A stretch of 64,000 nt of DNA from Nitrospinae bacterium CG11_big_fil_rev_8_21_14_0_20_45_15. Its GTDB lineage: Bacteria > Nitrospinota > Nitrospinia > Nitrospinales > VA-1. Below the pieces are notes generated by a model. That model had not been told where the DNA came from. It searched no databases and was given only the letters and a program-made list of their open reading frames with translations. Where the stretch lies: positions 1 to 64,000 of the forward strand of contig PCWG01000035.1 of NCBI GenBank assembly GCA_002787235.1, in the 5' to 3' direction. Every line of letters starts with the position of its first letter. Within the stretch, counting starts at the first letter, position 1. The position numbers were made by a program, and so were the translations under genes. This document shows positions 41 through 46,867 of the stretch, in pieces.

Positions 41-2167
41 ATGGAAAAGTCACCTAAGCAACTGAACCAAGCTTCATTTTTATCAAAACTGGGGATTTCA
101 TTCCTCCTTATTTTAATCTATGGGCTGGTTCATATTGGCCCTGCTCTGACACCGTTGTCTTCAAACGGAGTAACGCTGAACTTTGGCGCCTTGTCCTCAG
201 CTTACGCACAAGATGAAGACGAGGAAGAGGAAGAAGATGAAGGCGGCGAGGAAGAAGGCGGTGAAAGTGAAGCCGCAGGCGATAGTGCCGGTACCGAAGA
301 GGGTGCTGCCGAAGAGGAAGACTTATCTTACCTGACCGATATCGGCCCGGCAAAAGATCACAAATTCTCCGAGTTTTCCTTCCTGGGCACAAGCAACCGA
401 AAATTCACCTGGTTTGCCGCACAGCTTCACATCCTTTTCGCATCCTTTATTTTGGGTTGCCCCATGTTCGTCGTCATCATGGAAGTCATGGGCGCACGCC
501 GAACACAGGGAGTAAGGAAATCCATTATTCTATCAAACGTCTTTTTGGGAGTCCTCATAGGCGTTGTCATAGGTATCGTTGGGGAAATCATCGTCGGGAT
601 TCATCACGGTGTGCTTTATGGATTATGGGCCTGCGCATTTGGCGCATTGCTAGTGAGCTTCCTGAACTATTTCCACCGCTTGATGAATTTAAAGGTATCT
701 GCGGCAGTGGGTGCCGTATTTGGAACATTGATCGCGATTCCCTTAACGCCCGTCGATCACTTGGCAACCTCCGCTATCGTACTTGCAATCATCAACGGTG
801 CAGTGGGTGGTGCCCTTTCCAACTTCATCATGTTCGCCAAAGCCGACTTCAAGTTCGAGCGTCTGGCACATGAAATCACCAAAGTTATCGGTATTTGTTA
901 CAGCTTCACAGCCCTGACCGGTGGATTGTTCCTGTTCATTATGTTGATCGCCTACCAAGACTTCATTGGCTATCTCATACAATCCTTCCCTGTCTTGTTC
1001 ATGGTGGCTTACCCCACGCTGTTCATACTCGAAACCATAATCATGTACATTTATGTGTATTCATGGGATCCGCTGAACAAGAGCAACAAAAAGGGTCGAC
1101 ATATTGTAGTCGGTATCATCCTCAATATCTTGGGACTCACACTGCTCTGCGCGCTCGACGGCCCGGCGACTTTCATGCAAACACCGCCGAAACCGTTGGA
1201 CAACTTGATGGAAATCTCTGAATGGGCACGACTGACAACCCCGACCTGGATGCCTCTCAACTACCATCGTCTGGTGGGTAACGGTACTTTTGGCGGATAC
1301 ATGGTGTGCATCATCGGTGCTTACATGTACCTCTGGTCCAAGAGCAAAGAAGAAAAAGAATATTACGACTGGGTGGGCTACATTGGCAACCTCATCGGCG
1401 TCGGTATCATGATTCCTCTGCCAGCAATGGGTTACATCTTCGTTAGAGAAATTTACGAATACGATGCCACCATCGGCATGTACATCATGTCCGATCGTGA
1501 ATCCATGTTCATGCTCGTACAAGGACTCCTTGTCGGAACCATGTTCACTATGAGTAATATCTATATGTGGGTCAGTATGAAACGTATAGAAAATGCCCAA
1601 CGTTTCTTCCCGGCAATGAAATTTGGTTTCATATTGATCGTCTGCGCCGCCGCAATTTGGTTCACGCCCCGACGGTTCTATGCCACGATGATGCCAGAAC
1701 CCGGAATGAATGATGCAATGGTTCTGCCTGACAACCTGGCCTTCTTGGCACTGATGATTTCCAAAAACACAGCCGCGTTTGCCCTGGTGACAGTCACCTT
1801 CATCAACTACATTTTTTATACCATCGCCACACGAACCGGAAAAGTTCATTACGGCAAAATCAATCCCCTTGGATTGTATGCCCTGATCTTCCTGGGATTT
1901 GCCGACATCTGGCTCATGAGCTGGATGGGAACCATCCGCGAATTGTCGCGCATGAACTGGCACATCTATAAAGTATTTAAAGACGTCACCCCGGAGAAGT
2001 TTGCGCCTACCCTGGCCGAAGCCGGATTCCACGTCACCACCATCGTGTGGACCTTTTTCATCATCATGACCGCCATTATTTGGCTGGGCATCAAGTATCC
2101 CAAATCATCTAAAAAGAAAAAAGCCGAAACGACTTCATTGGAAGCCGCACCACAACCGGCAGAATAA
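41..2167 (+). CDS. Cytochrome bd-oxidase-like polytopic membrane protein
   Basis: A 708-residue inner-membrane protein. An N-terminal hydrophobic segment (about residues 15-40) is followed by a very acidic Glu/Asp/Gly-rich stretch (about 58-93), then many membrane segments from about residue 122 to 690 and a Lys-rich tail. The first core helix, around H130 (motif AAQLHILFASFILG), resembles the start of the CydA family, and H188/H189 lie in a later helix; these are candidate haem ligands. A membrane diheme cytochrome c follows after 19 bases, so the pair probably forms one respiratory complex. bd-like oxidases of this kind have been described in nitrite-oxidising bacteria. Whether it reduces oxygen or only carries electrons cannot be decided here. 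Confidence 0.7.
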   Translation: MEKSPKQLNQASFLSKLGISFLLILIYGLVHIGPALTPLSSNGVTLNFGALSSAYAQDEDEEEEEDEGGEEEGGESEAAGDSAGTEEGAAEEEDLSYLTDIGPAKDHKFSEFSFLGTSNRKFTWFAAQLHILFASFILGCPMFVVIMEVMGARRTQGVRKSIILSNVFLGVLIGVVIGIVGEIIVGIHHGVLYGLWACAFGALLVSFLNYFHRLMNLKVSAAVGAVFGTLIAIPLTPVDHLATSAIVLAIINGAVGGALSNFIMFAKADFKFERLAHEITKVIGICYSFTALTGGLFLFIMLIAYQDFIGYLIQSFPVLFMVAYPTLFILETIIMYIYVYSWDPLNKSNKKGRHIVVGIILNILGLTLLCALDGPATFMQTPPKPLDNLMEISEWARLTTPTWMPLNYHRLVGNGTFGGYMVCIIGAYMYLWSKSKEEKEYYDWVGYIGNLIGVGIMIPLPAMGYIFVREIYEYDATIGMYIMSDRESMFMLVQGLLVGTMFTMSNIYMWVSMKRIENAQRFFPAMKFGFILIVCAAAIWFTPRRFYATMMPEPGMNDAMVLPDNLAFLALMISKNTAAFALVTVTFINYIFYTIATRTGKVHYGKINPLGLYALIFLGFADIWLMSWMGTIRELSRMNWHIYKVFKDVTPEKFAPTLAEAGFHVTTIVWTFFIIMTAIIWLGIKYPKSSKKKKAETTSLEAAPQPAE

Positions 2168-2186
2168 ACTTCAGGAGCTCTAAAGG

Positions 2187-3485
2187 ATGGAAGAAAAACC
2201 CTTTTTGAAAAAATTAGGTTTCATCGTAGCAGTTGCCTCGGGAGCCGCTGTAGGTATCTGGCTACTCTCAGGTCTATTGGGACTGGCTCACGCCGCACGA
2301 TTGGGTAGCGTCGCAATCGTTGCTGTTGCCATGACCTACGCTATTCTTCTGGCACTCCCTAAAAGGGAACTGAAGGAGAAAAGCTTTCTACAAAATATCA
2401 AGATCAAAGTACCGGTCTTCCTCGTCATCGCTACAGCGATCTGGTTTGCGGCGGGGGCGGCGGGGTTTCCGATATGGTGGCAAATTGAATTTGTTGCCTT
2501 CGCATTCGTAGGTCTGACCTATTTTGTCATTCTAGACCTGAAGGCCATGCAACCGGAGCAGAACCACATCAGCTGGATAACCCGGTTGATTGCGACTTAT
2601 GCTCTGGCATCTCTGATATTTATCAATATCACAGGACAGCTTCCCCAATTCGACCCAGAGGTTGAAGTAGCGAAACTGGACAGGCCACCGATTAAACTGA
2701 GCGGATTGGCGGGTCCCGAAGTCATCGCCGCCGGTCGATCAGTTTTTGAAGAAAACAAATGCTTCAACTGCCACAAGGTTTTCTGGGAAGGCAACTCCGA
2801 TCGCGGTCCAAACCTGGGAACCAAGCAAATCGGATTATATGATGAAGCGTACATCAAAGAGCAGATTGTAAAACCAAGAGTAAAACAATCTCCCGGCTTT
2901 GATGATCCAAAATCCAAAAAAGCGATGCCGACATATTATGGTGAAGATTTGGATGATGACTCAATGCACGCTCTCATCTCTTACCTGAAAACCTTGCGTG
3001 ACCCTGAGCATGCACCTATCGAAGGAAAGCTTGGGGAGCAATGGTCCTGGTTTGACGATAAAGACATCATCGCCGAAGGCGAAAAGATATTCAATGGCGA
3101 AGGAACAGGGGCTGCTGAGGGTCTCAACTGTTCGGTATGTCACGGTAAAGATGGTACACCCATGATGACCGGTGCTCTCGATTTCAGAGATGCCAACAAA
3201 ATGGATACCCAGAAAATGCCCGATCGTCTGGACGGTGTTCCTTTGAAAGATTGGCCCGATGGACTTTGGTACAAACGCGTCACACGTGGCGTGGACGGAA
3301 CTCCAATGGCCGCGTGGGGAACGGTTTTCCCGCATCTCATACTCTGGAAAGCTGAATCCTATGCGCGAACCTTCCACTCTCCGCTTGAGTCCAGAGCTGG
3401 GAAATCGCCTATTCCGCCTGTACCGACCAAGGAAGACATTGAACGGTGGAAAACTGATGGCTTGTTCATGGATCCACTGCTGTAA
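2187..3485 (+). CDS. Membrane-anchored diheme cytochrome c
   Basis: A 432-residue protein with about four to five membrane helices in the first 150 residues and a periplasmic C-terminal half holding two c-type haem sites: C192-x2-C195-H196 (CFNCH) and C315-x2-C318-H319 (CSVCH). Methionines in KKAMPTYYG and GTPMAAWG are plausible sixth ligands. It lies 19 bases after the bd-like protein and is followed by a strong terminator, so the two genes form a bicistron. Likely role: electron transfer between the quinone or cytochrome c pool and the upstream subunit. The cytochrome c assignment is firm; the redox partner is inferred. Confidence 0.85.
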   Translation: MEEKPFLKKLGFIVAVASGAAVGIWLLSGLLGLAHAARLGSVAIVAVAMTYAILLALPKRELKEKSFLQNIKIKVPVFLVIATAIWFAAGAAGFPIWWQIEFVAFAFVGLTYFVILDLKAMQPEQNHISWITRLIATYALASLIFINITGQLPQFDPEVEVAKLDRPPIKLSGLAGPEVIAAGRSVFEENKCFNCHKVFWEGNSDRGPNLGTKQIGLYDEAYIKEQIVKPRVKQSPGFDDPKSKKAMPTYYGEDLDDDSMHALISYLKTLRDPEHAPIEGKLGEQWSWFDDKDIIAEGEKIFNGEGTGAAEGLNCSVCHGKDGTPMMTGALDFRDANKMDTQKMPDRLDGVPLKDWPDGLWYKRVTRGVDGTPMAAWGTVFPHLILWKAESYARTFHSPLESRAGKSPIPPVPTKEDIERWKTDGLFMDPLL

Positions 3486-3502
3486 GAAAATTTGCTTATC
3501 AG

Positions 3503-3538
3503 AGCAGGGAAACCTTCGGGTTTCTCTGCTTTTTTTTT
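3503..3538 (+). terminator. Rho-independent terminator after cytochrome c
   Basis: A 12-bp stem (arms 3503-3514 and 3519-3530, one G-T pair) closes a TTCG tetraloop and is followed by eight to nine T residues. It ends the bd-like/cytochrome c transcript. Confidence 0.93.
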
Positions 3539-3692: not shown

Positions 3693-4175
3693 ATGAGCAA
3701 GCGCGTAGACGATTTGATAAAAGAAGGGCTCTCTGAAAATGGGGAAATCCTCAACTTGAGAGATAAATTTCTTGGCTTGAGGGGTTCTATAGAACTGGCC
3801 AACAATCCCATCCTAAAAAACGTAAAGGAATTGATCTTGCCCAGCAATCAATGCGCCGATGAAGGAGCCGAAGCACTCGCAAACTCGCCCTACCTGGAAA
3901 ATCTTGAAATCCTCAACCTGAATCACAATGAGATCGGGGACGATGGGGCCATCGCTCTAGCAAACTCCACCAAATTACCGAAACTCAATAATCTATCTGT
4001 ATTTGGTAACGTCATTGGAGATTCAGGCGCACAAGCCTTTGCCAATTCCGAGCAAAGTAAGAAATACATCAAACTCGATCTCTACAAAAATCAATTTGGC
4101 AGTATTGGTTACAAGGCACTCACGGAATCGCCCAATTTAAAGAATTGTGAAGAACTGGAAGTGTATCGCGACTAG
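3693..4175 (+). CDS. Leucine-rich repeat protein, ribonuclease-inhibitor type
   Basis: 160 residues, no signal peptide, preceded by an AAGGAG ribosome site. After an N-terminal cap (about 5-38) come four repeats of about 28 residues with the pattern L..L.L..N.I.D.GA.A.A.S, typical of RI-like LRRs (LRR_6/LRR_RI). Such solenoids bind other proteins; no catalytic part is present, so this is probably a cytoplasmic adaptor. The cap and repeats are shared with the LRR proteins at 40248 and 40837. It stands as a single gene between two terminator-like hairpins. Partner unknown. Confidence 0.82.
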   Translation: MSKRVDDLIKEGLSENGEILNLRDKFLGLRGSIELANNPILKNVKELILPSNQCADEGAEALANSPYLENLEILNLNHNEIGDDGAIALANSTKLPKLNNLSVFGNVIGDSGAQAFANSEQSKKYIKLDLYKNQFGSIGYKALTESPNLKNCEELEVYRD

Positions 4176-4743: not shown

Positions 4744-5084
4744 AGTTGGCTCCCTTCCTTCAGTTTCAATTTTAGAACTTCCTATTATAAGACCCGTTCG
4801 ATCTTTTCACAAGGATTGCCAACGATCGGCAAGAAAACCTGGTCACATTTTTATAAACATAAGCATTTTTATTCAAGCAACAAGCTCGATAAAAATAGCA
4901 AGTTACCCGCACATCAAAACACATCTTACTATTAAATAACGAGTTACGGACTATTAAATAAAATGGCCCATTTATTGCTTAGTTAAATGATGACAATACA
5001 ATGATTTTGGTTTCTTAAATTTAAAAAACAGTTCTCGTTTTCGGAAATTATCCAACGATCAACCTCTCAAATGGCAGGATCGCT
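4744..5084. other. AT-rich divergent intergenic region
   Basis: 341 bases between the divergent Rieske and adhesin genes. Very AT-rich on the adhesin side. It must hold both promoters, but I could not assign clear -35/-10 boxes, and I see no hairpin, repeat or convincing small ORF. Confidence 0.5.
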
Positions 5085-8000
5085 ATGATGAAAAGTGACT
5101 GGTTAAAAACAACGATTCAAACGGGGCTTTACAGTTCACTGCTCTTTTTACTGATGTCCGCTGATCTGGCTTTTTCGAATCCAGAAGGGGGCGTTGTTCA
5201 ATCGGGCAATATCAATATAGAACAAGCCTCTCCCACTCGCTTGAACGTGATCCAGAGCTCCAATAAGGCCATCATTGATTGGCGATCCTTCAGTATCGAT
5301 ACTTCCGAACATACCGATTTTCAGATGCCTTCCTCAAACTCGGTGAACCTCAGTCGGGTCACCGGGGACAATCCTTCCAACATATTCGGGAAATTGACCG
5401 CTAATGGGAGGTTGATGCTCGTCAATCCCAACGGAATTCTATTTGGCAAAGATTCGCAGGTTGATGTCAACGGCTTGATTGCAACCACAAGCGACATTGA
5501 TAATAGGAACTTTCTTAAGGGTTTCTACTCGTTCCAACAAGCACCTCACTCAAGCAACACCATCATCAACCGTGGAGCCATCAACGTTGCTGATGGGGGT
5601 TTGCTGGCCCTTGTCGCCCCTGGAGTTGAGCATTTGGGAACCATCAACGCCAGATTCGCTCGTGTCACCCTCGCCTCAGGAACACAGTTCACCGTGGACT
5701 TGTACGGCGACGGTCTCATCAACCTGGGAGTGCGATATGTCTACAGAGATGCGGATTCATACGTTCCCCCGATCATCCAGTCGATTGAAAACTCCGGTCA
5801 GATCAATGCTCAAGGTGGAACGGTGGTGTTGGATATCAAATCAGCGCAAGATGTATTGAGCAACGTTGTCAATATGTCCGGTGTCGTCAACGCAAATTCC
5901 TTCTTCTCCCAAAAAGGAAAAATCATATTGAATGGAGACTCCCAAAGCATGGTTCGTGTTGCGGGAACCTTAAACGCTTCTGGCTCAGGAAACAATGAGC
6001 AAGCGGGCGAAATCGATATTTACGGCAATAAAATAGGACTGCTCGACACCGCCAAAATCGATGTGTCCAGCAACAATCATGGCGGCAAAGTCTTTATAGG
6101 GAGCAAAGCTTTCGGAATCTCACAACCGAACGGCAGGCAAGCTTCGCGTACCTACATGGCGTCTTCTGCAAGCATTGACGCATCCTCCTACGAAGCTGGC
6201 CCCGCAGGGGAGGTCAGTCTTTGGGGTGATTCCAGCCAGATTCTTGGAACCATCAAGGCACACGGAGGCTCTTTCGACGGTGTGGGTGGCAAAGTGACCA
6301 CGGCAGGCACAACCCATCTCGAAATCACCCAGGCCCCCAATGTATCCTCTGATTCGGGCAAAGCCGGTACTTGGGATATCATTTCAGATAATGTTGAAAT
6401 TGTTCGCAAACAAGCTCCACCAACAACCAACCCAGACCTCAGCGTTTTTGAATTTTCTGATTCCCCCACAAAATTAGCCGCCAGCATCCTGGAAGATGCT
6501 CTGAACACAGGAGCCCAAGTGAAGGTATCAAAGGGTTACTTTGGGAATCAACAGCCTGGTGGGAAAATCACCGTCAACGCGCCGATCAATTTTAGCGGAG
6601 GCGGCAGTCTCGCACTTGAGTCTGGTGGCGATGTGCAAATCAATGAAAATATCACTCTGGATCCTGTCGGGGAATCCCGCCCCACTCTCTCCATTTTTGC
6701 AGATACGAATCGGGATGGAGAAGGTGACTTTAACCTGGCAGAAGGAAAAACAATTTCATCATACAACGGTGTCATCAGGATTCAAGCAAGCGTTATTAAT
6801 CTTGAAGGCACCATAGACAATACGCGTGGTTATACCCACTTCCAAAATTCCACCGAAGATTCGGTGCACCTGGGCCGTGGAACCGGTGGATTTGTTTTAA
6901 ATGGCGAGGAACTGCAAAATATTTCGGGGAACATAATCTCGTTTAACAGTTACAACTTAGGGGATATTTACATTGATGGCCTGACCGAACAGAACACTCA
7001 AAATATCAATTATTTCCAAATCACCAGTTCAGACGAGTTGAGTTTTGTAAATAACGCATCCATTTTTAACACATTGTCCGCATCTGCCCATGGTAATTTA
7101 GCAGTCAAAGCCGACTTGACAATGAAAGGTTATGGCTCTTCCTTTTACAGCTTTGAAAAAGGGGCTAAATTTTATTTGGCTTCAGGAAGCACCATTAGAC
7201 ATACCAGTTATGGACTCACCTCTCTCTTTGCAGGAGATTTTGATATTCAAGGAAACATCCAAACTTCGAATTTGAATATAAACACCTATAAGAGCCAATC
7301 CTTGGGATTTGGGCAAGCCCATTGTGGAGGTTCTTGCGACGCACTTCTGGACAATCAGGAACTCACAAATATATCAACAAACAAAATGACTTTATTTGAT
7401 CCATATAAAGAGGAACTATCGATATATTTTGATGGCGTCACAGAAGAAGCTTTTTCCAACATCAACGAGTTCACCCTTCATGGGATGCCCAAGTATTACA
7501 AGGATTATAAGCAAACCAATATTATCTTTACCGGTGCCACCAATTTTTTACCGCGTGGGAAAATTGACCGCTGGGCAGATATCACTGTGGACTCTGAAGT
7601 CGTGGCAAAAGATATTCAGTGGTCGGTAGAAAATATAGACTTCACCCAGGCCGGGAAAATCACCGCCAGCCAATCCGCAAAACTCTCAACGGAAAAATGG
7701 GCGGAGGAAAATCAGGGAAATATAACAATGCACCAGAATTCCGTTATAGCCTCTCCGTATATCAACCTCGCCGCAAAAGAAGACATTACCTTGGGTTTGC
7801 TGGATGCGACGACTAACCCCACCCAATCCCCTCGTATCACTTTAAGTTCTCAAAACGGGTCCATTTACGACGGCGATACCAATGGTGCGCTGGACATCAA
7901 CGCGGGAAAAGGATTTCTCAAGGTATCAACCCCAAACAACTTTGGAACCGATGAGAACCCCATTGAAGTCATTGCCGGAAACGCAGATTTTTCCGACGTT

Positions 8001-9122
8001 GCGGGAACTGTCGGAACCCAATTGAGTTCCGAAAACGGCATCAATATTTTCAAAAACGCCAACTTTTCAGAATCGACGTCTATTGATGCCGATACAGATC
8101 GTGATGGCGAGGGAACGTTCAAAGTCTTCCGTCAAGCGACCGTATCGACTGCCAACAATCCCTTAAATATCACTGCGGGAGAAGTTGTGCTGGAGGGCAA
8201 GCTGGACAGTGGCTCGGCTAAAACCGCAATCACCTTGACGAAGAAAAATAATACGGGGATTGGGAATTCAAACTGCAATGGACCTTGTGGCAGTTCGATA
8301 AATAATACTGAGCTTCAACAAATCACCGCTGGCGAGCTGGAGATCACCACAACGGGTCAGACCTTCGTCAACGGCGTTTCCGAACAGTCCGCTTCAAAAT
8401 CAAACCTCAATGCCATCAAAAGCGAAAATAACATAGTCATTGCAGAATCCTCTTCGAGCTTCAAAAATATACTGATTGAAACCAGTGCCAATATCAATGT
8501 CGAAGCTTCGGTTTCTGCCCAGGCTGAATTATCCCTCAATGCCACAAACGTTGCATTTTCATCTCTAGGAAAAGCAACCGCTGAGACAGTGAACATCATC
8601 GCTAAAGAAAACCCACTGGCTCAGGGAGGATCGTTGACACAGGCTCCGCAATCTTCCATCAATGGCAACACCGTCAACCTGACTACCGATCAAAACATCG
8701 TTCTCGCCCAGGTCAATGTCTTGCCGGAAACTGAAAAAATGGGGTCTATTAATCTGATTTCAAACAAAGGGGATATTCTCAACGGTCTGAATACCGGCAT
8801 CAACATCAATGCCTCACAAGGCAATTTGAATGTTCAAAAAGCCAACAGTGTGGGAACCCAGAATAAAGCGATTGAGGTACTAGCGAGAAAATTGAGCATT
8901 GAGGATCCCGCAAAATTTACTCTTGTCCATATCATCAACCGTATCAACGAGAGCAACGCAGAAAAAACAATTTTTGGATTCGGTGCATCTGCAGAAGTCA
9001 TCAACCTGCAACCTTCTTCACCGCTTCCCAACGATCCTACCGATGGAGGCGCGTTCATTGTAGATCCTCTGGGACTCCTGGGACCTCAAGACGATTCTTT
9101 CAGCACAATAGGCCTGCCATAG
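5085..9122 (+). CDS. Filamentous-haemagglutinin-like exoprotein (TpsA type)
   Basis: 1345 residues. A signal peptide (about 1-31) is followed by a TPS secretion domain (about 32-160) with the diagnostic VNPNGILFG motif and nearby N-T-I-INRGAI-type segments. The remainder is low-complexity beta-helix sequence. Three related modules start near residues 594, 740 and 1057; the second and third carry paired Cys (HCGGSC, NCNGPC). Two DxNxDGxG loops, at about 540 (DTNRDGEGDF) and 1003 (DTDRDGEGTF), look like calcium-binding turns. Such proteins cross the outer membrane through a TpsB pore and act as adhesins; no TpsB gene lies in the window. The C-terminus lacks an autotransporter barrel. The ligand is unknown. 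Confidence 0.88.
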   Translation: MMKSDWLKTTIQTGLYSSLLFLLMSADLAFSNPEGGVVQSGNINIEQASPTRLNVIQSSNKAIIDWRSFSIDTSEHTDFQMPSSNSVNLSRVTGDNPSNIFGKLTANGRLMLVNPNGILFGKDSQVDVNGLIATTSDIDNRNFLKGFYSFQQAPHSSNTIINRGAINVADGGLLALVAPGVEHLGTINARFARVTLASGTQFTVDLYGDGLINLGVRYVYRDADSYVPPIIQSIENSGQINAQGGTVVLDIKSAQDVLSNVVNMSGVVNANSFFSQKGKIILNGDSQSMVRVAGTLNASGSGNNEQAGEIDIYGNKIGLLDTAKIDVSSNNHGGKVFIGSKAFGISQPNGRQASRTYMASSASIDASSYEAGPAGEVSLWGDSSQILGTIKAHGGSFDGVGGKVTTAGTTHLEITQAPNVSSDSGKAGTWDIISDNVEIVRKQAPPTTNPDLSVFEFSDSPTKLAASILEDALNTGAQVKVSKGYFGNQQPGGKITVNAPINFSGGGSLALESGGDVQINENITLDPVGESRPTLSIFADTNRDGEGDFNLAEGKTISSYNGVIRIQASVINLEGTIDNTRGYTHFQNSTEDSVHLGRGTGGFVLNGEELQNISGNIISFNSYNLGDIYIDGLTEQNTQNINYFQITSSDELSFVNNASIFNTLSASAHGNLAVKADLTMKGYGSSFYSFEKGAKFYLASGSTIRHTSYGLTSLFAGDFDIQGNIQTSNLNINTYKSQSLGFGQAHCGGSCDALLDNQELTNISTNKMTLFDPYKEELSIYFDGVTEEAFSNINEFTLHGMPKYYKDYKQTNIIFTGATNFLPRGKIDRWADITVDSEVVAKDIQWSVENIDFTQAGKITASQSAKLSTEKWAEENQGNITMHQNSVIASPYINLAAKEDITLGLLDATTNPTQSPRITLSSQNGSIYDGDTNGALDINAGKGFLKVSTPNNFGTDENPIEVIAGNADFSDVAGTVGTQLSSENGINIFKNANFSESTSIDADTDRDGEGTFKVFRQATVSTANNPLNITAGEVVLEGKLDSGSAKTAITLTKKNNTGIGNSNCNGPCGSSINNTELQQITAGELEITTTGQTFVNGVSEQSASKSNLNAIKSENNIVIAESSSSFKNILIETSANINVEASVSAQAELSLNATNVAFSSLGKATAETVNIIAKENPLAQGGSLTQAPQSSINGNTVNLTTDQNIVLAQVNVLPETEKMGSINLISNKGDILNGLNTGININASQGNLNVQKANSVGTQNKAIEVLARKLSIEDPAKFTLVHIINRINESNAEKTIFGFGASAEVINLQPSSPLPNDPTDGGAFIVDPLGLLGPQDDSFSTIGLP

Positions 9123-9642: not shown

Positions 9643-11399
9643 CACTCCTTAACAACACATTACCCGAACAAAGAAGAGGTAAATTAAAATCTCTTTTAAA
9701 GCAGAGAGCATTGGTCCGCGTATTGGAAGCCCACAACGGCTTGAGTGGCATTTTGGCCAACAACGTTTACGTAGAAGGTCAAACTGAAAATGGAACCATT
9801 CGTCATGAATACGATGCCATTTGGGAAAGTAGTTTGACCGACTCGGCATCCAAAGGTCACCCCGATATCGAAGTCATCAGTTTCGACTCGCGACTGGCAA
9901 CTATCAGTGAAATTCTCGCCGTTACTAACAAACCCATGATCGTGGATGGAGACACCGGCGGCGACCCGAATAATTTTGAATACATGGTTTCCAAGCTCGA
10001 ACGAGCAGGAGTCTCCGCCGTTATCATTGAAGACAAAGTTTTTCCCAAAAGGAACAGTCTCGAAACCGGAGCGCAACAAACTCTTGAAGACCCACAGGTC
10101 TTTGCCCAGAAAATCAAACGCGGAAAAAATATTTGCATGACCAATGACTTCCTGATCATCGCCCGCATCGAAAGCCTGATCGCCGGGAAAGATATGGATA
10201 CCGCCGTTCAGCGCGCAAAAATTTATCTGTCCGCAGGTGTAGATGGCATCATGATTCATTCTAAATCAAAACAACCCAACGAGGTTTTGGAATTTGCCAA
10301 AAGGTACAAGGCACTTCCTGAAAACCTGACAAAAGGCAAACCACTCGTTTGTGTGCCGACCACCTACAACACGATCACCGAGGATGAATTGGCAAAAGCA
10401 GGATTCAATATAGTGATCCACGCCAACCACCTGCTACGCAGTGCGTACAAGGCGATGGAAGAAACCGCGAAAATCATCCTCAGCAATCAACGTTCTTTCG
10501 AAGCCGATCCGCATTGCGCACTGGTACGCGATATTTTCTCAACCGTAGGTTTTCTTGATGTCAAAAAGAAAGACGAAGAAAATGAATTAACGACCAACAT
10601 CCCGACCATCATCCCAGCCGCAGGTGAAGACCCCACTTTAAAAGCCGAACTCAACGGCAAGCCCAAGGCCATGCTCGAAATCGGAGGGAAAACTTTATTA
10701 CAAAGACAGATCGAAGCATTGAATCATAACGATCTGACCGACATCACAGTCGTCACAGGCTACGCCGCAGATCAAATGAAAGCCGAAGGGGTTACATTTG
10801 TTGAGAACAAAAATTACCGGAATGGAACTTCTTTGCAGAGCATCCTTACCGCAAAAAATAAAATTCAACACGGTTGGCTCATGCTCTATGCCGACATTGT
10901 TTTACAGGATAATATTCTTCCCAAAATACTGGAATGCAAGGAAGACATCGTGTTGGTCGTAGACAGTGCCCCGCAATACCATCCCGGCGATAAGAGGACC
11001 ACGCTGGATTACGTTATCAGCAAACACAAGGCAAAACCCGCACGCCGGAAAATAAGCTTTGTTCATGAAAATATCATTGCCAAAATTGGCAACAAAATTA
11101 ATCCAGAAACGGCGACTCACGAATTCATCGGACTGGCAAAATTTTCAAAAACAGGAGCTGAACAATTTCTCCAAACTTATCAGGATTGCATACAAAACTA
11201 CAAAGGCAAGTTTCAGGAAGCCGACGACATCACACGGTTCAATTTCACAGACCTTATTCAGGAAATGATCGATAGGGGTTTTACCGTCAATTTTGTTGAG
11301 ATTCAACAAGGCTGGCTCGAAATCCATCAGCCTGAAGACATCGAGCTTGCCAACAAACTCTTTCAACAATCCGCATCCGAGCTCATTCAAACTCATTGA
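9639..11399 (+). CDS. PEP mutase fused to a nucleotidyltransferase
   Basis: 586 residues in two domains. Residues about 20-300 are a phosphoenolpyruvate phosphomutase of the isocitrate-lyase superfamily: EAHNGLSG (30-37), W62/S64, the metal-binding D103/D105 in VDGDTGG, and the mutase signature EDKVFPKRNS (131-140). The reaction is PEP to phosphonopyruvate, the entry step to C-P compounds. Residues about 320-580 resemble sugar/phosphonate nucleotidyltransferases (IIPAAGEDP at 324, then PKAMLEIGGKTLL); the usual G-x-G-x-R loop is altered. Activation of a phosphonate by CMP for attachment to lipid or glycan is the likely second role. No phosphonopyruvate decarboxylase or transaminase is nearby. 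Confidence 0.85.
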   Translation: MTLLNNTLPEQRRGKLKSLLKQRALVRVLEAHNGLSGILANNVYVEGQTENGTIRHEYDAIWESSLTDSASKGHPDIEVISFDSRLATISEILAVTNKPMIVDGDTGGDPNNFEYMVSKLERAGVSAVIIEDKVFPKRNSLETGAQQTLEDPQVFAQKIKRGKNICMTNDFLIIARIESLIAGKDMDTAVQRAKIYLSAGVDGIMIHSKSKQPNEVLEFAKRYKALPENLTKGKPLVCVPTTYNTITEDELAKAGFNIVIHANHLLRSAYKAMEETAKIILSNQRSFEADPHCALVRDIFSTVGFLDVKKKDEENELTTNIPTIIPAAGEDPTLKAELNGKPKAMLEIGGKTLLQRQIEALNHNDLTDITVVTGYAADQMKAEGVTFVENKNYRNGTSLQSILTAKNKIQHGWLMLYADIVLQDNILPKILECKEDIVLVVDSAPQYHPGDKRTTLDYVISKHKAKPARRKISFVHENIIAKIGNKINPETATHEFIGLAKFSKTGAEQFLQTYQDCIQNYKGKFQEADDITRFNFTDLIQEMIDRGFTVNFVEIQQGWLEIHQPEDIELANKLFQQSASELIQTH

Positions 11400-13111
11400 A
11401 CATGAAATACAGCCAACTATTCATACCAACATTAAAAGAAGCACCTGCCGACGCTGAAACTGCCAGCCATCAGTACATGGTTCGCGCCGGGTTGATCCGT
11501 CAACTTGCATCCGGAATCTATTCCACACTGCCACTGGGCTTGCGCGTCCTGCGAAAAATCGAGAACATCATTCGAGAAGAAATGAATAACATCGGTGGGC
11601 AGGAATTGTTTCTTCCCAGCATCCAACCCGCAGAATTGTGGAAGGAAAGTGGACGTTGGGATTTTTACGGGAAAGAGCTTCTCCGCATTCGAGACCGTCA
11701 CGACCGCGAGTTCTGCTATGGCCCCACCCACGAAGAAGTTATTACAGACCTCGTGCGCAAAGAAGTACACTCCTACAAACAACTGCCGCTGACCTTTTAT
11801 CAAATTCAGACCAAGTTCAGAGACGAAGTGAGGCCCCGATTCGGCATCATGCGAGGACGCGAATTTTCGATGAAGGATGCCTACAGTTTCCACGCCGACG
11901 AAGAAAGCGTCAATAAAACTTACGACGACATGGCCCGCGCCTACTCCAACATCTTCGAGCGGTGTGGTCTCGAATACAAAAAAGTGGAGGCTGATACCGG
12001 CTCCATCGGTGGTGCCCGTTCGCATGAATTCCATGTTCTGGCCGACTCCGGCGAAGACGAAATCGGGTTTTGCAACACCTGTGATTTTGCATCCAATCTT
12101 GAAATGGCTCAACGATGCTTGCCAACCAAGACAAATGCAAGCGAAAACCAAACACCTCCTGTTGTAAAAGAAATTTCAACACCCGGAAAGAAAACCATCG
12201 AAGAAGTTACAAACTTTCTTTCCATCACCCCGCAGGAAGTCATCAAAACAATCGTATTTGAAAGCGATGCAGGTTTAGTGGCAGGATTGTGCCGGGGAGA
12301 TCGAGAAATCAACCCCATTAAATTGAAAAAATTGATCGATTGCGAATGGCTGCATTCTGCCGACCAAAGCAAACAGGCAGACGACATTGCCTACGGCTAC
12401 ATAGGACCGATAGGTCTCAAAATGCCCATCTATGCCGATGCCGAAATCATGCAAATGCCACAAGCCGTGGCAGGAGCGAATAAGACAGACTTTCATCTCA
12501 CCGGCATCGCTCCCCAAAGAGACCTCAGCCAAGTCATAACAGGTGATTTATGCTTTGCCAGGGCAGATGACCCCTGCCCCCAATGCTCTTCAGGTAAACT
12601 TCAAGTCAAACGTGGAATCGAACTGGGACATATTTTCGTACTTGGAGATAAGTACAGCAAAGCCATGAAAGCCAATTTTCTCGATTCAAATGGCAAGGAA
12701 CAAACCATGGTCATGGGATGTTACGGCATTGGCGTCGGCAGAACAGCCGCCGCCGCGATAGAACAACTGCATGACGAAAAAGGCATTTGCTGGCCCAAAA
12801 GCATTGCCCCATTCCAGATAGAAATCATACCCGTCAACATGAAAGACGAGGAAACCGTCACCGTTTCCGAAAATCTTTACTACTCCTTTCGCGAAAAGGG
12901 CCTTGAAATCCTGCTCGACGACCGTGCCGATCGAGCCGGAATAAAATTTAAGGACGCCGATTTGTTGGGACTCCCCGTTCAAATCATCATAGGTCCCAAA
13001 ACCCTACAGGAAGGGTTGATTGAGATACGCATCCGCAAAACTGGCGAAAGCATCTCCTCCCCTGTCACCCAAGCTATAGAAGAAACACAAAGAATTCTTG
13101 CAACACTTTAG
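11396..13111 (+). CDS. proS: Prolyl-tRNA synthetase
   Basis: 571 residues, the usual length of bacterial-type ProRS. The class II catalytic core holds motif 1 near residues 20-65 and the GPTHEEV and FRDEVRPRFG motifs at about 108-150. An inserted editing (INS) domain spans about 225-400, and a C-terminal anticodon-binding domain starts near 470. It charges tRNA-Pro in the cytoplasm. The ATG overlaps the preceding stop by four bases, so proS is coupled to the phosphonate gene. A terminator at 13204 separates it from rimP. Confidence 0.97.
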   Translation: MNMKYSQLFIPTLKEAPADAETASHQYMVRAGLIRQLASGIYSTLPLGLRVLRKIENIIREEMNNIGGQELFLPSIQPAELWKESGRWDFYGKELLRIRDRHDREFCYGPTHEEVITDLVRKEVHSYKQLPLTFYQIQTKFRDEVRPRFGIMRGREFSMKDAYSFHADEESVNKTYDDMARAYSNIFERCGLEYKKVEADTGSIGGARSHEFHVLADSGEDEIGFCNTCDFASNLEMAQRCLPTKTNASENQTPPVVKEISTPGKKTIEEVTNFLSITPQEVIKTIVFESDAGLVAGLCRGDREINPIKLKKLIDCEWLHSADQSKQADDIAYGYIGPIGLKMPIYADAEIMQMPQAVAGANKTDFHLTGIAPQRDLSQVITGDLCFARADDPCPQCSSGKLQVKRGIELGHIFVLGDKYSKAMKANFLDSNGKEQTMVMGCYGIGVGRTAAAAIEQLHDEKGICWPKSIAPFQIEIIPVNMKDEETVTVSENLYYSFREKGLEILLDDRADRAGIKFKDADLLGLPVQIIIGPKTLQEGLIEIRIRKTGESISSPVTQAIEETQRILATL

Positions 13112-40247: not shown

Positions 40248-40844
40248 GTGGCCAGCGTCGAATATTTGATCAAACAGTTTCTAACACCCGATAAAAAAAT
40301 TCTTAATTTGAGTAATCAAAAGTTGGGCGATAAAGGAGCGATTGCTATCGCTAATTCTAAGGTTTTGAGTAAACTCAAACGCTTGAGTTTGCCCAATAAC
40401 AGTATCAGCGATGAAGGAATACTGGCTATTGCCGAGTCCGAATATTTCAAAAACCTCACCGAACTCGACATCTACGGAAACTTGATTGGAGACGACGGCG
40501 TCAAAGCCATTGCCGCATCCCCATATTTTAAAAAGCTGAACAAACTGTCCCTGTACAGCAATCTCGTTGAAGATGACGGTGCCATCGCTATTGCAGAATC
40601 AACCACTTTGATAAAATTAAAACATCTCTTTTTGACAGGCAACCGGATAAGGCGAGAAGGCGTCGAAGCACTTCGAGCGGCAAAATGCCGATCCCGATTG
40701 TGTCATCTTCATCTGGATGAAATTGAAGATTTCATTTACGAAGATGATATCGATGACGATGATGACGAGATCGCCATCACAAGCCTTGAGGATCTGAAAA
40801 GAATCAAAGAAAAAATGGCTGAAAGAAAAATTAAAAATGCCTGA
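40248..40844 (+). CDS. Leucine-rich repeat protein with acidic tail
   Basis: 198 residues from a GTG start preceded by TGGAG. An N-terminal cap (VEYLIKQFL..KKILNL) leads into about four RI-type repeats (L..L.L..N.I.DEG..AIAES), then an acidic stretch YEDDIDDDDDE (about 164-174) and a Lys-rich end. No signal peptide, so cytoplasmic. Closely related in cap and repeats to the proteins at 3693 and 40837. Its stop overlaps the next LRR gene by eight bases. Likely a protein-binding adaptor. Confidence 0.82.
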   Translation: MASVEYLIKQFLTPDKKILNLSNQKLGDKGAIAIANSKVLSKLKRLSLPNNSISDEGILAIAESEYFKNLTELDIYGNLIGDDGVKAIAASPYFKKLNKLSLYSNLVEDDGAIAIAESTTLIKLKHLFLTGNRIRREGVEALRAAKCRSRLCHLHLDEIEDFIYEDDIDDDDDEIAITSLEDLKRIKEKMAERKIKNA

Positions 40845-43181: not shown

Positions 43182-44747
43182 CTAATTTTTTGAAATGTTT
43201 TCGAATTCCTCAATGCGTTCCATAAGTCGATGCATCTTTTTGTCCAGGGTCGTAATATGGCGACCGATCTCGTCGATCTCTTTTCTTTCCTTGGATAAAT
43301 AAACCGTCCGGCATTTTTCCAAATGTTGCCCGATATGTTCGATCATATCGTGCACCTCTGTGCTTTCAAGCGACAGGTCCTCTGCCGTTTCCTGAAGCTC
43401 GATCATCGTTTCTTCAACCTCTTCCTGATTGGATAAGAGTAATTTCTTTTTACGCCCTCGGTTTCTTTGATAAAGAATCCAAAATCCTGAAAAAACAAGA
43501 CCCAGTAAACCCAGAGTGGCAAGATCAACCAACAATACAAAATAGGAACCAAAAAAACGTCCGGTATGAATTTCTGTGATCAGTTTGACCAAATCCATTT
43601 TGCGATCTTCTGACGCAAGTTTTTCACTGTTAGTTTCCAGCTCAGGCACACGCCAGGTTTTACCTTCATCAGAAGAAACGATCAATCCCTGGTCACTTGC
43701 CAACAATAAAACCGAATGGTTTACCTCCCCAAGATAAAGCAAATCCCCGATTTTAATCGGAGCATTTAACTCATCTTTGACATCGCTCAAAGAGATCTCT
43801 TTCCATTCATCACCCCCATTTTTCGTTTGAAAAATCTGATCTATTGAAGCTACGATCAAATGAGAAATATTTTTTTCAGACGATTGTATGAGATGAACCG
43901 ACTCAATATCGTTGTTTCGATCACGAACCCATGATCTGCCACCATTGAAAGATTTATATAATCCTTCTTGAGTCCCCGCATAAAAAAATTCGGGTTCTGC
44001 GGAAAGTGAAATCAAAGAATGTGGAATGGGCAACCGATCTTCCCAGACATTTTCCCAATCCGATTCTTCATTTTTTCTATAAACCCCCTGATTTGTCAGT
44101 AAATATACGGTATCCAGATCGACTGAGGAAAATACAACTTGATGAATGGTTGGTGGAGAATCGGAATTTTTTCCTGCAAAAGAGAGTTTCCAGCTTTCAC
44201 CCCCATCGTCGCTTGAATAAAGCCCCCCATTGGTCACTGCGTAGACAATGTCAGGGTCCTTTTGGTGAACTGCCAGGTGACTTACAACGGGATGAGCCAG
44301 GCCGCTCGCGACATCGAACCAGTCACTCCAATGCTCGCCGCCATCTTCCGATTTGAAAATTCCCTGCGGAGAACCCGCATAAACAATGTCCGGCATTTGA
44401 GGAGACAAAGCAAGGGCGCGGATGTCTTGAGAGAACAAACCTTCTTTAAGATGCGTCCATGTTTTGCCCCGATCGACCGATCGAAACAAACCGTGACGGG
44501 CACCCACGAATAATTTTGTTCCCTCTGGCGTTCCCGCAAGTGCTTGAACTTGTCTTTTACCAGATTCAATTTGAAAATATTTATCAGGAAGAAATGCGCC
44601 ATCCACCTCTTTGTGATTGAGACCCAGCTCATCGTAATGCATGAGCAATACACCTGTAACAGATAAAATCACCAGGAAGAAAGCACAAACCACACCCACC
44701 CAACGGTGTAAAAACCGTGAATTTTTAAACAAGGAGCGCACGTTCAA
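43182..44747 (-). CDS. PepSY-TM-like protein with BNR/Ycf48-type repeats
   Basis: 521 residues. An N-terminal helix with the PepSY-TM signature [19 protein letters not shown] (about 14-32) is followed by a periplasmic domain with at least four BNR Asp-box repeats ([40 protein letters not shown]), like photosynthesis-assembly factor Ycf48. [10 protein letters not shown] (about 397) leads into a second helix (about 405-425), and a cytoplasmic helical tail (about 445-515) contains H466, H471, H475, C479, H497 and H506. The tail is homologous to that of the upstream FTR1 protein, with which it overlaps by four bases. PepSY-TM proteins often reduce ferric siderophores in Fur regulons; a similar role is inferred. 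Confidence 0.82.
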
Positions 44748-46867
44748 ACCAATCCCTTATTTCCTTCCGTCGATACATTCAGCCGAGTCAAGCGTTCGAA
44801 CTCGCTGGACAATTGGTCTTCAACGGAGTGGACGTGGTTATACAGCTCATGAACTTTCTCATCGATCTCCTTCAAATGCTCTGATAATTCTTTGAGATCC
44901 TGATCTTTGGTGTCCTTTAAAAACACTTCACATCGTTTCGCGTGTTGCGAAATATGAGCGACCAGATCGTGAACGATAGCGATGTCTTGTTGAATCTTCC
45001 CAGCTTCTGCATGCAATTGTTTGTTTTCCACTTCGGGCTTGAACACAAAGGTATAAAGAAGTGCGAGGATATAAGCCAGAGCCAGAACCATTTGACCTGA
45101 GAAAGTCTCCCATGAAGGGTACATACCCAACCAGGAAATCTCTGGAGCAAAATCAGCCGCCGTCAAAGACAACTGCTCACCCATTTGCAACTCATGCAAT
45201 CCTTTTCCCATGAACACGAAAGCCATGAAATACAGAAAAACACTGGTCACCGCAAAGAACCATTTGATAGGAATTTTCATACCGGCTTTGGAGATCAGGT
45301 AGTAAATACCTGCAAGAATTAAACTTCCCACAAGAAATCCTGGAATGATTCCAGCCGTCCCCGGTCCCGCATACAAATAAAGAGCTTTGTAAAAAAGAAC
45401 AGTCTCAAATCCTTCTCGGTAGACTGATAAAAAGGCCACCATGCCCAGCGTGAGCAGACTTCCCTCTGACACCGCTTGTCGCATTTTCCCAGAAATATAA
45501 CTTTGCCATTTCGCCGCTTCTATTTTTGTCACCAGCCAATAACTGACCCAAAACAAGGCGACAACCGCGACAAGCATGATCCAGCCTTCCAGCAATTCCT
45601 GGCTGACTCGACTGATTTTAAGCACTTCGTGAAGAACATAAGCAGTGATAAAACTCGCCACAATACCAATGCCGGCCCCATAATAAATTGATTTTACCTT
45701 ATCTTCATTGCGGGATTTTGTTAGAAAAGTTATCAGTGCCGCGATGATAAGAATCGCCTCAAAACCTTCACGCACGATGATGGATAACGATTGCAGGAAA
45801 AGCCCGACAAACCCAATATTCTCTACCAGAACGTCGCTCGCCTGAGTCAAATCCTCATGTATATTCTTATGAATGCCTTCGACCAGATCCTGCGGGGCCT
45901 TGCGTTTGATTTCCGCACGATATCGGCTGAAAGAGGATTCCAGTCGCAGACCGAGTTCCTTGCGTTTGTTGACCAGCCCACCCTCAATCGATTCGTAGAC
46001 CATGTAAGCGTCGAATGCCATCTCCGACGCCGTATCTGCATCACCTTCCTTGAATAGTTGCAAACTTTGATCTAGCAGAGTGCGTGTCTCAGCAATTGTG
46101 TCCAATGCGTTTTTATCGCCAGAAGACGCTTCCGCCACTTTCGCAACGTCAGGCAAAGGAAGCTGAACATCTGCATTAGAAAATGAACGAATGTAATAAG
46201 TCACATCCCATATTTCCGCTTCCGTCAAGAACTCCGCCCAGGCAACCATTGCGGTATTCGCAATGCCAACGTTGATGACCTGGAAATTATCGTAAGGTCG
46301 CGTATCCGCATTGCCCGTAAACTTGGGATCGGACAAATCGGTGGGAGGCGGTGTGAGAGTAGCCGCAAGTGGACCGTTGCCCTTGCCTTCGAGACCATGA
46401 CACAATACACATCGGCTTTGATAAATCAGCTTGCCATTGTCCAAATTGACCGCTTGAGCCGGGGTAAATTTGATCTCAACTTGAAACTGTTTCTGAAGAT
46501 TTTCGTTGATCGCGTTGATTTCCGCCCGAACTTTTCCAGGATCTATTTTCGTTCGACTGCTTTCCTCCAACGCATCAAACGCCGCTATCAACGCCGACGA
46601 TTCAGCTCCCGGATGTTTCGCAGCCAGCGATTTGAAACGAGTCGAGGCCTGTCCTAAAAAAATAAGACTTTCCTCATATTCCGCTGAATTTATAATTTTG
46701 CCGTCCGCAATACCCTCGTGATATTCCTTGGCCGCGATATTCAACATCATGACTATTTTTTTAACCTTCATTTCCACCTCTGCCGTCGAAGCAGAAGACA
46801 AAACAGGGTGACCGAGCGAAAGGAAGATTAAAAATAATAAGGATAAAGCAGACTTCAATGAATTCAT
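44744..46867 (-). CDS. FTR1 iron permease with periplasmic cytochrome c domain
   Basis: 707 residues. Signal peptide (about 1-27), a helical periplasmic region, a c-type haem site C153-x2-C156-H157 ([13 protein letters not shown]), a further helical part, then the FTR1/EfeU permease with seven or so helices and two REGFE iron-binding motifs ([10 protein letters not shown] and [10 protein letters not shown]). A cytoplasmic C-terminal tail (about 620-707) carries H633, H638, H642, C646, H664 and H673 and matches the tail of the downstream gene. It should import iron across the inner membrane, with the cytochrome domain handling electron transfer to or from iron. A Fur box lies 69 bases upstream. 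Confidence 0.93.

Follow-up and report, generated by a model that had tools for sequence, protein, structure and literature searches.

The first two genes of a 64,000-nucleotide stretch from the Nitrospinae bacterium CG11_big_fil_rev_8_21_14_0_20_45_15 (assembly GCA_002787235.1, contig PCWG01000035.1; the whole stretch is referred to here as the window) appear to encode a bd-like_1 subunit, probably OR-N1, and the dedicated membrane diheme cytochrome c of a putative cytochrome c-linked O2 reductase of the Nitrospinales, a reading that is given a probability of about 0.6. The larger protein, P0001 (positions 41–2167, 708 amino acids; all features are on the + strand unless stated), is a CydA-like membrane subunit. 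It is followed after 19 bases by P0002 (2187–3485, 432 amino acids), in which five helices precede two cytochrome c domains, and the two-gene unit is closed by a strong hairpin that forms an intrinsic terminator (3501–3538, z -4.0). P0001 matches PF01654 (Cyt_bd_oxida_I) with 30.5 bits against a cut-off of 26.2, and P0002 has two CxxCH motifs and a match to PF00034, which agrees with the initial annotation of 41–3485 as a CydA-like protein with a membrane diheme cytochrome c. That annotation overlooked that the window begins at a contig end, its position 1 being where contig C32 of this genome starts, with 41 bases upstream of P0001.

An AlphaFold model of P0001 residues 95–708 (33 rows, mean pLDDT 77.5, pTM 0.77) has the CydA fold. 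The ten best solved chains found with VIA-align are all CydA (Z 23.0–26.7 over 327–350 residues) and the next best fold is ActC of alternative complex III (Z 14.3–17.6); L110, which has a stop codon, was left out of the structure alignment. The Foldseek superpositions are poor, with TM 0.25–0.39 by query and root mean square deviations of 20–22 Å in the first five rows. Sequence search for solved relatives of P0001 returned none, and profile search returned four weak matches, of which the three listed rest on acidic low-complexity sequence.

The haem ligands were compared in a MAFFT alignment of 56 sequences, comprising 20 of the window type (length-filtered), 11 D, 6 N (Nitrospirota), 5 C, 8 O (bd-like_2), and 6 canonical CydA, and these row classes are used throughout. 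H130 (428–430) corresponds to H19 of E. coli CydA, which we take to be an axial haem ligand, and is invariant in 56/56 rows. M393 and E445 of the E. coli protein are presumably ligands of haem b558 and haem b595, respectively. The profile alignment made with hhalign places M572 (1754–1756) opposite M393, with a probability of 98.1 over 411 columns, while MAFFT is three columns off and has K575 at this position, M572 being three residues earlier. H409 (1265–1267) corresponds to the haem b558 ligand H186, the role of which has been described in canonical bd oxidases together with that of E99 (PMC5322542), and it too is invariant in 56/56 rows, including 20/20 orthologues. E331 (1031–1033), the equivalent of E107, is kept in all rows but one. 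A lack of conserved haem ligands, which would have refuted the initial annotation, is not what is seen, the H19 and H186 equivalents being invariant in all 50 non-canonical rows. H641 (1961–1963) is likewise invariant in these 50 rows at a position where canonical CydA has no histidine, and is a possible replacement ligand.

Other residues differ. The position of E99 is Tyr324 in 20/20 orthologues and Tyr in 50/50 non-canonical rows. That of E445 is Trp628 by MAFFT (Trp or Leu in the family) and E634 by hhalign, the latter being Glu in 17/20 orthologues and Ser in the other three, and Ser again throughout the N, C, and O classes (19 rows). The canonical O2-site residues are therefore only partly kept, which weighs against the reading of the pair as a cytochrome c-linked O2 reductase, as do some observations from elsewhere: experimental confirmation of OR-N enzymes is lacking (PMC10839748), the host genomes of some D-type relatives also have haem-copper oxidases, the exported part of P0002 is acidic (net -10), and a contact between P0001 and the C-type paralogue on contig C7 is hypothetical. 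In the Q-loop, K252 and E257 are replaced by Gly and Ser in 20/20 orthologues; these are the quinol residues of canonical bd oxidases (PMC13189123). There is no PF02322 (CydB) match in the genome itself (G000). The loss of the quinol residues, the absence of CydB, the Tyr for E99, and the lack of conservation of E445 set P0001 apart from the canonical bd oxidases, and cytochrome c is most probably its source of electrons. A canonical CydAB oxidase is ruled out by E99, the quinol residues, and CydB. A haem-copper oxidase is ruled out as well, there being no PF00115 match and Leu562-Pro563 standing, in 20/20 orthologues, where bd-like_2 has His-His. The initial interpretation is partly borne out: the protein is CydA-like but not CydAB, and E99, E445, and the lost quinol residues speak against a simple bd oxidase.

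Some P0001 homologue is present in 72 of the 77 genomes of the phylum. Within the order, here 64 genomes (G000 and G004–G066), the P0001 type (at least 59% identity) is found in 56, including 28/28 of those at least 90% complete; the eight without it (G006, G014, G021, G048, G050, G054, G060, and G061) are 59–84% complete. Among named genomes, 64 loci were found by profile search. The close ones carry the names Nitrospinota, Nitrospinae, Nitrospinaceae, Nitrospinia, or Nitrospina with one exception, a record titled Nitrospirae bacterium SZUA-350. This is a metagenome-assembled genome assigned to the class Nitrospinia (PMC10839748). The source organism is a Nitrospinota nitrite oxidiser, and the nitrite-oxidiser setting suggested for the locus is borne out by these names and by an NxrA-like protein of 1151 amino acids in its genome, a label that rests on family similarity.

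In most near-complete genomes no other O2 reductase was recognised. Full-length COX1 (profile about 1–435) is found in 5/64 order genomes (G004, G016, G019, G024, and G029), CydB also in 5/64 (G010, G011, G012, G016, and G029), and neither in 21 of the 28 near-complete genomes, among them the single-contig G047 of the same genus. One of these 21, G023, carries a COX1 fragment of 158 amino acids above the cut-off, and there are COX1 pieces below the cut-off in other order genomes, including G000 (E 2.8e-4), to which no identity is assigned. AOX was found in 0/64 order genomes, by a search that was also silent in all 14 control genomes and is hence without a positive control. In these 21 genomes, P0001 and the C-type paralogue are left as O2 reductase candidates, and P0001 would be a leading candidate for the missing O2 reductase of the Nitrospinales. 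The C-type paralogue in the genome itself has about 31% identity to P0001, and its neighbours, a diheme c, a monohaem c, and an NxrC-like protein, match the gene set published for the conserved NxrC cluster, which is known from nitrite oxidisers and from anaerobic anammox bacteria, where the C-type bd-like protein occurs (PMC8026999).

Reverse electron flow is an alternative, in which the membrane potential would drive high-potential electrons from cytochrome c to quinone or another low-potential acceptor and not to O2. Such a role has been suggested for the Nitrospina bd-like protein, provided that it can interact with quinone (PMC3578206), and the changes at E99 and E445 would fit it, as would the molybdo-oxidoreductase and FeS (iron-sulphur) genes that adjoin D-type relatives. 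However, both K252 and E257 of the canonical quinol site are lost, the C-type would be the sole O2 reductase left in 21/28 near-complete genomes, and it is the C-type rather than the P0001 type that is reported from anaerobic bacteria (PMC8026999), so that reverse flow appears unlikely.

The cytochrome partner supports the reading of P0001 as a cytochrome c-linked O2 reductase. P0002 fits a class I cytochrome c twice, with CxxCH and a downstream Met in each domain, both invariant in 31/31 rows: C192, C195, and H196 (2760–2774) with M247 as the candidate distal ligand for haem c1, and C315, C318, and H319 (3129–3143) with M374 for haem c2. The odd number of helices and the basic N-terminus suggest that the haem domains are in the periplasm. 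A P0002 homologue is directly downstream in 43 of the 45 window-type loci with room for one, and in the other two (L072 and L095) a cytochrome open reading frame overlaps the end of the gene, owing to an upstream start. This, with the absence of PF02322, upholds the suggestion that the subunit has a dedicated diheme partner instead of CydB. The D-type loci L103, L105, and L113 keep the pairing of bd-like protein and cytochrome, while the Nitrospirota have two monohaem proteins instead; the pairing is thus old, and the diheme form is not particular to the source organism. In two Nitrospinota genomes a second P0002-type diheme copy lies in tandem behind the first (L088:9881–11146 and 11204–12385; L089:3326–4588 and 4791–5897).

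P0001 is a CydA homologue without the quinol residues and separate from canonical CydA, as are the bd-like and OR-N proteins. In a tree of 45 rows, with the window type represented by nine of its 20, the 39 non-canonical rows are separated from the six canonical CydA with support of 100/100. The nine window-type rows are one group (100/100), the nearest relatives of which are L043 and L172 (99/98), and the C-type rows fall outside it. Two D rows cluster with the Nitrospirota bd-like_1 rows, those of bd-like_2 being apart; deep branching is otherwise not settled. In six Nitrospirota loci the homologue is flanked by cytochrome c genes and by a set of Rieske, cytochrome b, and bd-like_2 genes, and the same arrangement has been described for N. 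moscoviensis, where bd-like_1 is beside bd-like_2/NIDE0901 and complex III_1 (PMC6606698). P0001 corresponds to bd-like_1 of Nitrospira. A NIDE0901-like OR-N2 subunit and an OR-N1 CydA likely make up an oxidase (PMC12342949), and with the neighbours of the Nitrospirota homologues this suggests that P0001 is probably OR-N1. Cytochrome c is the likely donor of the OR-N enzymes (PMC10839748).

The pairing of OR-N1 with OR-N2 as CydAA' is a published hypothesis (PMC10839748, PMC12342949), and under it P0001 could be a non-catalytic half, with the CydB/CydA' role of electron entry and scaffold and the O2 site in the C-type paralogue, since both proteins are held by the same genome. That P0001 has H130, H409, and M572, that the C-type retains no more of the canonical residues among those compared, and that the C-type has cytochromes and an NxrC-like neighbour of its own all argue against this, and it is considered improbable, more so than reverse flow.

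L105/L172 is one of the two closest rows to the window clade, and there an alternative complex III-like (ACIII-like) cluster with a pentahaem c, a molybdopterin-type protein, an NrfD protein, and others lies directly upstream of the bd-like protein and its diheme c. Such clusters are frequent sites of oxygen reductases (PMC12342949), and in Ca. Manganitrophus, too, bd-like terminal oxidases are described together with parts resembling alternative complex III (PMC9040806). The D-type loci L103, L107, and L167 combine the bd-like protein in one cluster with genes for a molybdo-oxidoreductase, an FeS protein, and a monohaem cytochrome c, as if some oxidation were coupled to it; D-type relatives adjoining molybdo-oxidoreductases point to a general role as sink for electrons of the periplasm. 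Some bd-like_2-type proteins have a cytochrome c-like C-terminus with CxxCH (L053:634–3006; L054:8708–11257 and 7240–8718), and in L054 a complex I/Mrp antiporter-like subunit comes next.

P0001 begins with a hydrophobic segment of export-like character (residues 1–56, 41–208), which ends in AYA and after which the protein would be cleaved, and [AV]xA is present ahead of the acidic block in 41/41 orthologue N-termini (35 by regular expression and 6 read as VxA). The acidic tail that follows (residues 57–93, 209–319) has 21 Asp/Glu in 37 residues and no Lys or Arg, which confirms the 36-residue Glu/Asp block noted beside the N-terminal helix. From the fold of CydA and the signal-like nature of the preceding segment, it would lie on the periplasmic side. 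Between orthologues the tail shows free variation in length and residue order, yet 49/49 of the N-termini measured are acidic, with 18–32 Asp/Glu in 36. At least 20 in 36 is reached by 11 of 247 open reading frames (at least 100 amino acids, 13 loci), these being the window protein and ten of its orthologues, so the acidic block is beyond chance. Outside the window type, 30 members of the family were compared (11 D, 6 N, 5 C, and 8 O), and only the class-level relative L043 has such a tail (23 in 36), the next most acidic being two C-type rows of the same genus (12 in 36) and L172 (11 in 36). A tail limited to the order is thereby ruled out, and as L043 has the tail without the insert described below, the tail is older than the insert or independent of it.

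That the tail docks basic cytochromes is a plausible hypothesis, with a parallel in bc1 complexes, in which acidic segments assist cytochrome c binding. Since P0002 is itself acidic, the tail is unlikely to be a partner for P0002 and more likely draws soluble cytochromes. A survey of cytochromes c in the genome itself gave 21 distinct open reading frames, from 30 of 40 matches. Three small monohaem cytochromes are strongly basic after the removal of 24 residues, with isoelectric points of 9.6 (L189), 9.7 (L203), and 9.2 (L215). Four consecutive genes for monohaem cytochromes c, all on one strand, lie at G000:C17:4841–6652; two of the products are strongly basic, and they are candidate electron carriers. 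Basic cytochromes are also encoded on contig C37.

Between CydA helices 1 and 2 is an insert of about 114 residues (approximately 154–267, 500–841), the other feature that the initial annotation overlooked. It has four helices, and this even number preserves the CydA topology, with which the loop charges are consistent. There are 52 window-type rows, ten of which lack the second regular-expression landmark and were excluded; the insert is present in 42/42 of those with both landmarks and in 0/27 of the other family members with both. The landmark spacing without the insert is 26 in 10/11 D, 6/6 N, and 6/8 O rows and 26–32 in 5/5 C rows, the rest being unmatched. A search with the insert found it in 55/64 order genomes and in 0/13 other members of the class, with one weak match set aside; in the phylum none was found outside P0001-type frames except a weak match in G006 (33%, E 0.009). 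The insert is not a known domain, nothing in Pfam matching it at E values of up to 10. It may provide a face for assembly, a path for ions, or a site for an extra cofactor.

The tail and the insert might also be the result of neutral drift, a loose linker and spare helices with no role in electron transfer, which would be compatible with the other readings. The free variation of the tail would fit this, as would the lower conservation of the insert, which over 27 rows has 32 invariant positions out of 117 (27%), compared with 62% in the core. The acidity in 49/49 N-termini, its rarity among other open reading frames, the presence of the insert in 42/42, and the inclusion of E182, H188, and H212 among the invariant positions speak against drift, which is doubtful, if the least so of the alternatives.

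If P0001 and P0002 are parts of a cytochrome c-linked O2 reductase, electrons from nitrite would pass through NXR to a small basic periplasmic cytochrome c, which would be captured near the acidic tail and pass them to the haems c of P0002. From there they would go to a low-spin haem b on H409 and M572 of P0001, then to a high-spin haem on H130, and finally to O2, with the C-type paralogue perhaps the second half of a CydAA' pair. A more far-reaching version, in which this is the missing O2 reductase core of the principal nitrite oxidisers of the ocean, a bd-type enzyme re-plumbed to cytochrome c, with a tethered polyanionic antenna gathering basic cytochromes, a four-helix module (E182/H188/H212) as ion path or cofactor site, and energy conservation other than that of known bd oxidases, is a rather unlikely one.

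Both the family and the idea that it uses cytochrome c are already published, and the tail and the insert are, as far as was found, unreported additions; the available parts of the literature on these oxidases, supplements not covered, gave no description of either. The route of electrons to O2 in Nitrospinae without a haem-copper oxidase has been stated to be unclear (PMC8026999) and the enzyme behind their high O2 affinity is still to be identified (PMC8115632). Being present in 28/28 near-complete genomes, 21 of them without full-length COX1 and CydB, P0001 is a narrow and testable target. If it is the oxidase, it would be a bd-type enzyme linked to cytochrome c and extended by an acidic tail that is exported and by an extra module of helices, which would bear on nitrite oxidation in oxygen-poor waters.

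Elsewhere in the window, a leucine-rich-repeat protein (3693–4175, PF13516) lies near the P0001/P0002 pair, and in ten order loci compared the pair is followed by a protein similar to it in size and N-terminus. A second leucine-rich-repeat protein is at 40248–40844. The window also encodes a two-partner secretion type protein of 1345 amino acids with a TPS secretion domain (5085–9122, PF05860), and a cytochrome c domain fused to an FTR1 iron-permease domain (44744–46867, - strand).

Among known systems, ActC, an NrfD-like protein of alternative complex III, resembles P0001 in being the next best fold and in that ACIII-like genes adjoin one P0001 relative, but the identity in structural alignments is 5–8% and no sequence match was seen. 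E. coli CydA is closer, in fold (Z 24.6–26.7 for the E. coli chains) and in H19, H186, and E107, but differs in having CydB, the Q-loop residues, E99, where P0001 has Tyr, and E445, which is not conserved in the family. The C-type bd-like protein of the NxrC cluster in Nitrospina, Nitrospira, and anammox bacteria (PMC3578206, PMC8026999) shares the H19, H186, and E107 equivalents; it is outside the window group, has no insert, and has a mild tail (12 in 36) and a neighbourhood of diheme c, monohaem c, and NxrC-like genes. The OR-N1/OR-N2 CydAA' of Nitrospinota is of the same phylum, is CydA-like without quinol residues, and has cytochrome c as its proposed donor, though the tail and insert of P0001 are without mention in the available part of that account (PMC10839748). 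L043 (G001; named copy L109), a class-level relative of 606 amino acids, is near the window clade and has both the acidic tail (23 in 36) and a P0002-like diheme c downstream, but no insert, with 26 residues between the landmarks against 139 in the P0001 type. The open reading frames of Nitrospira bd-like_1 are of 567–587 amino acids without insert or acidic tail, and there the cytochrome is split into two monohaem proteins and the Rieske/cytochrome b and bd-like_2 genes adjoin; its core is nevertheless homologous to that of P0001, with 34.7–40.7% identity in the best BLAST piece across six Nitrospirota loci, and its cytochrome c partner genes are homologous to P0002.

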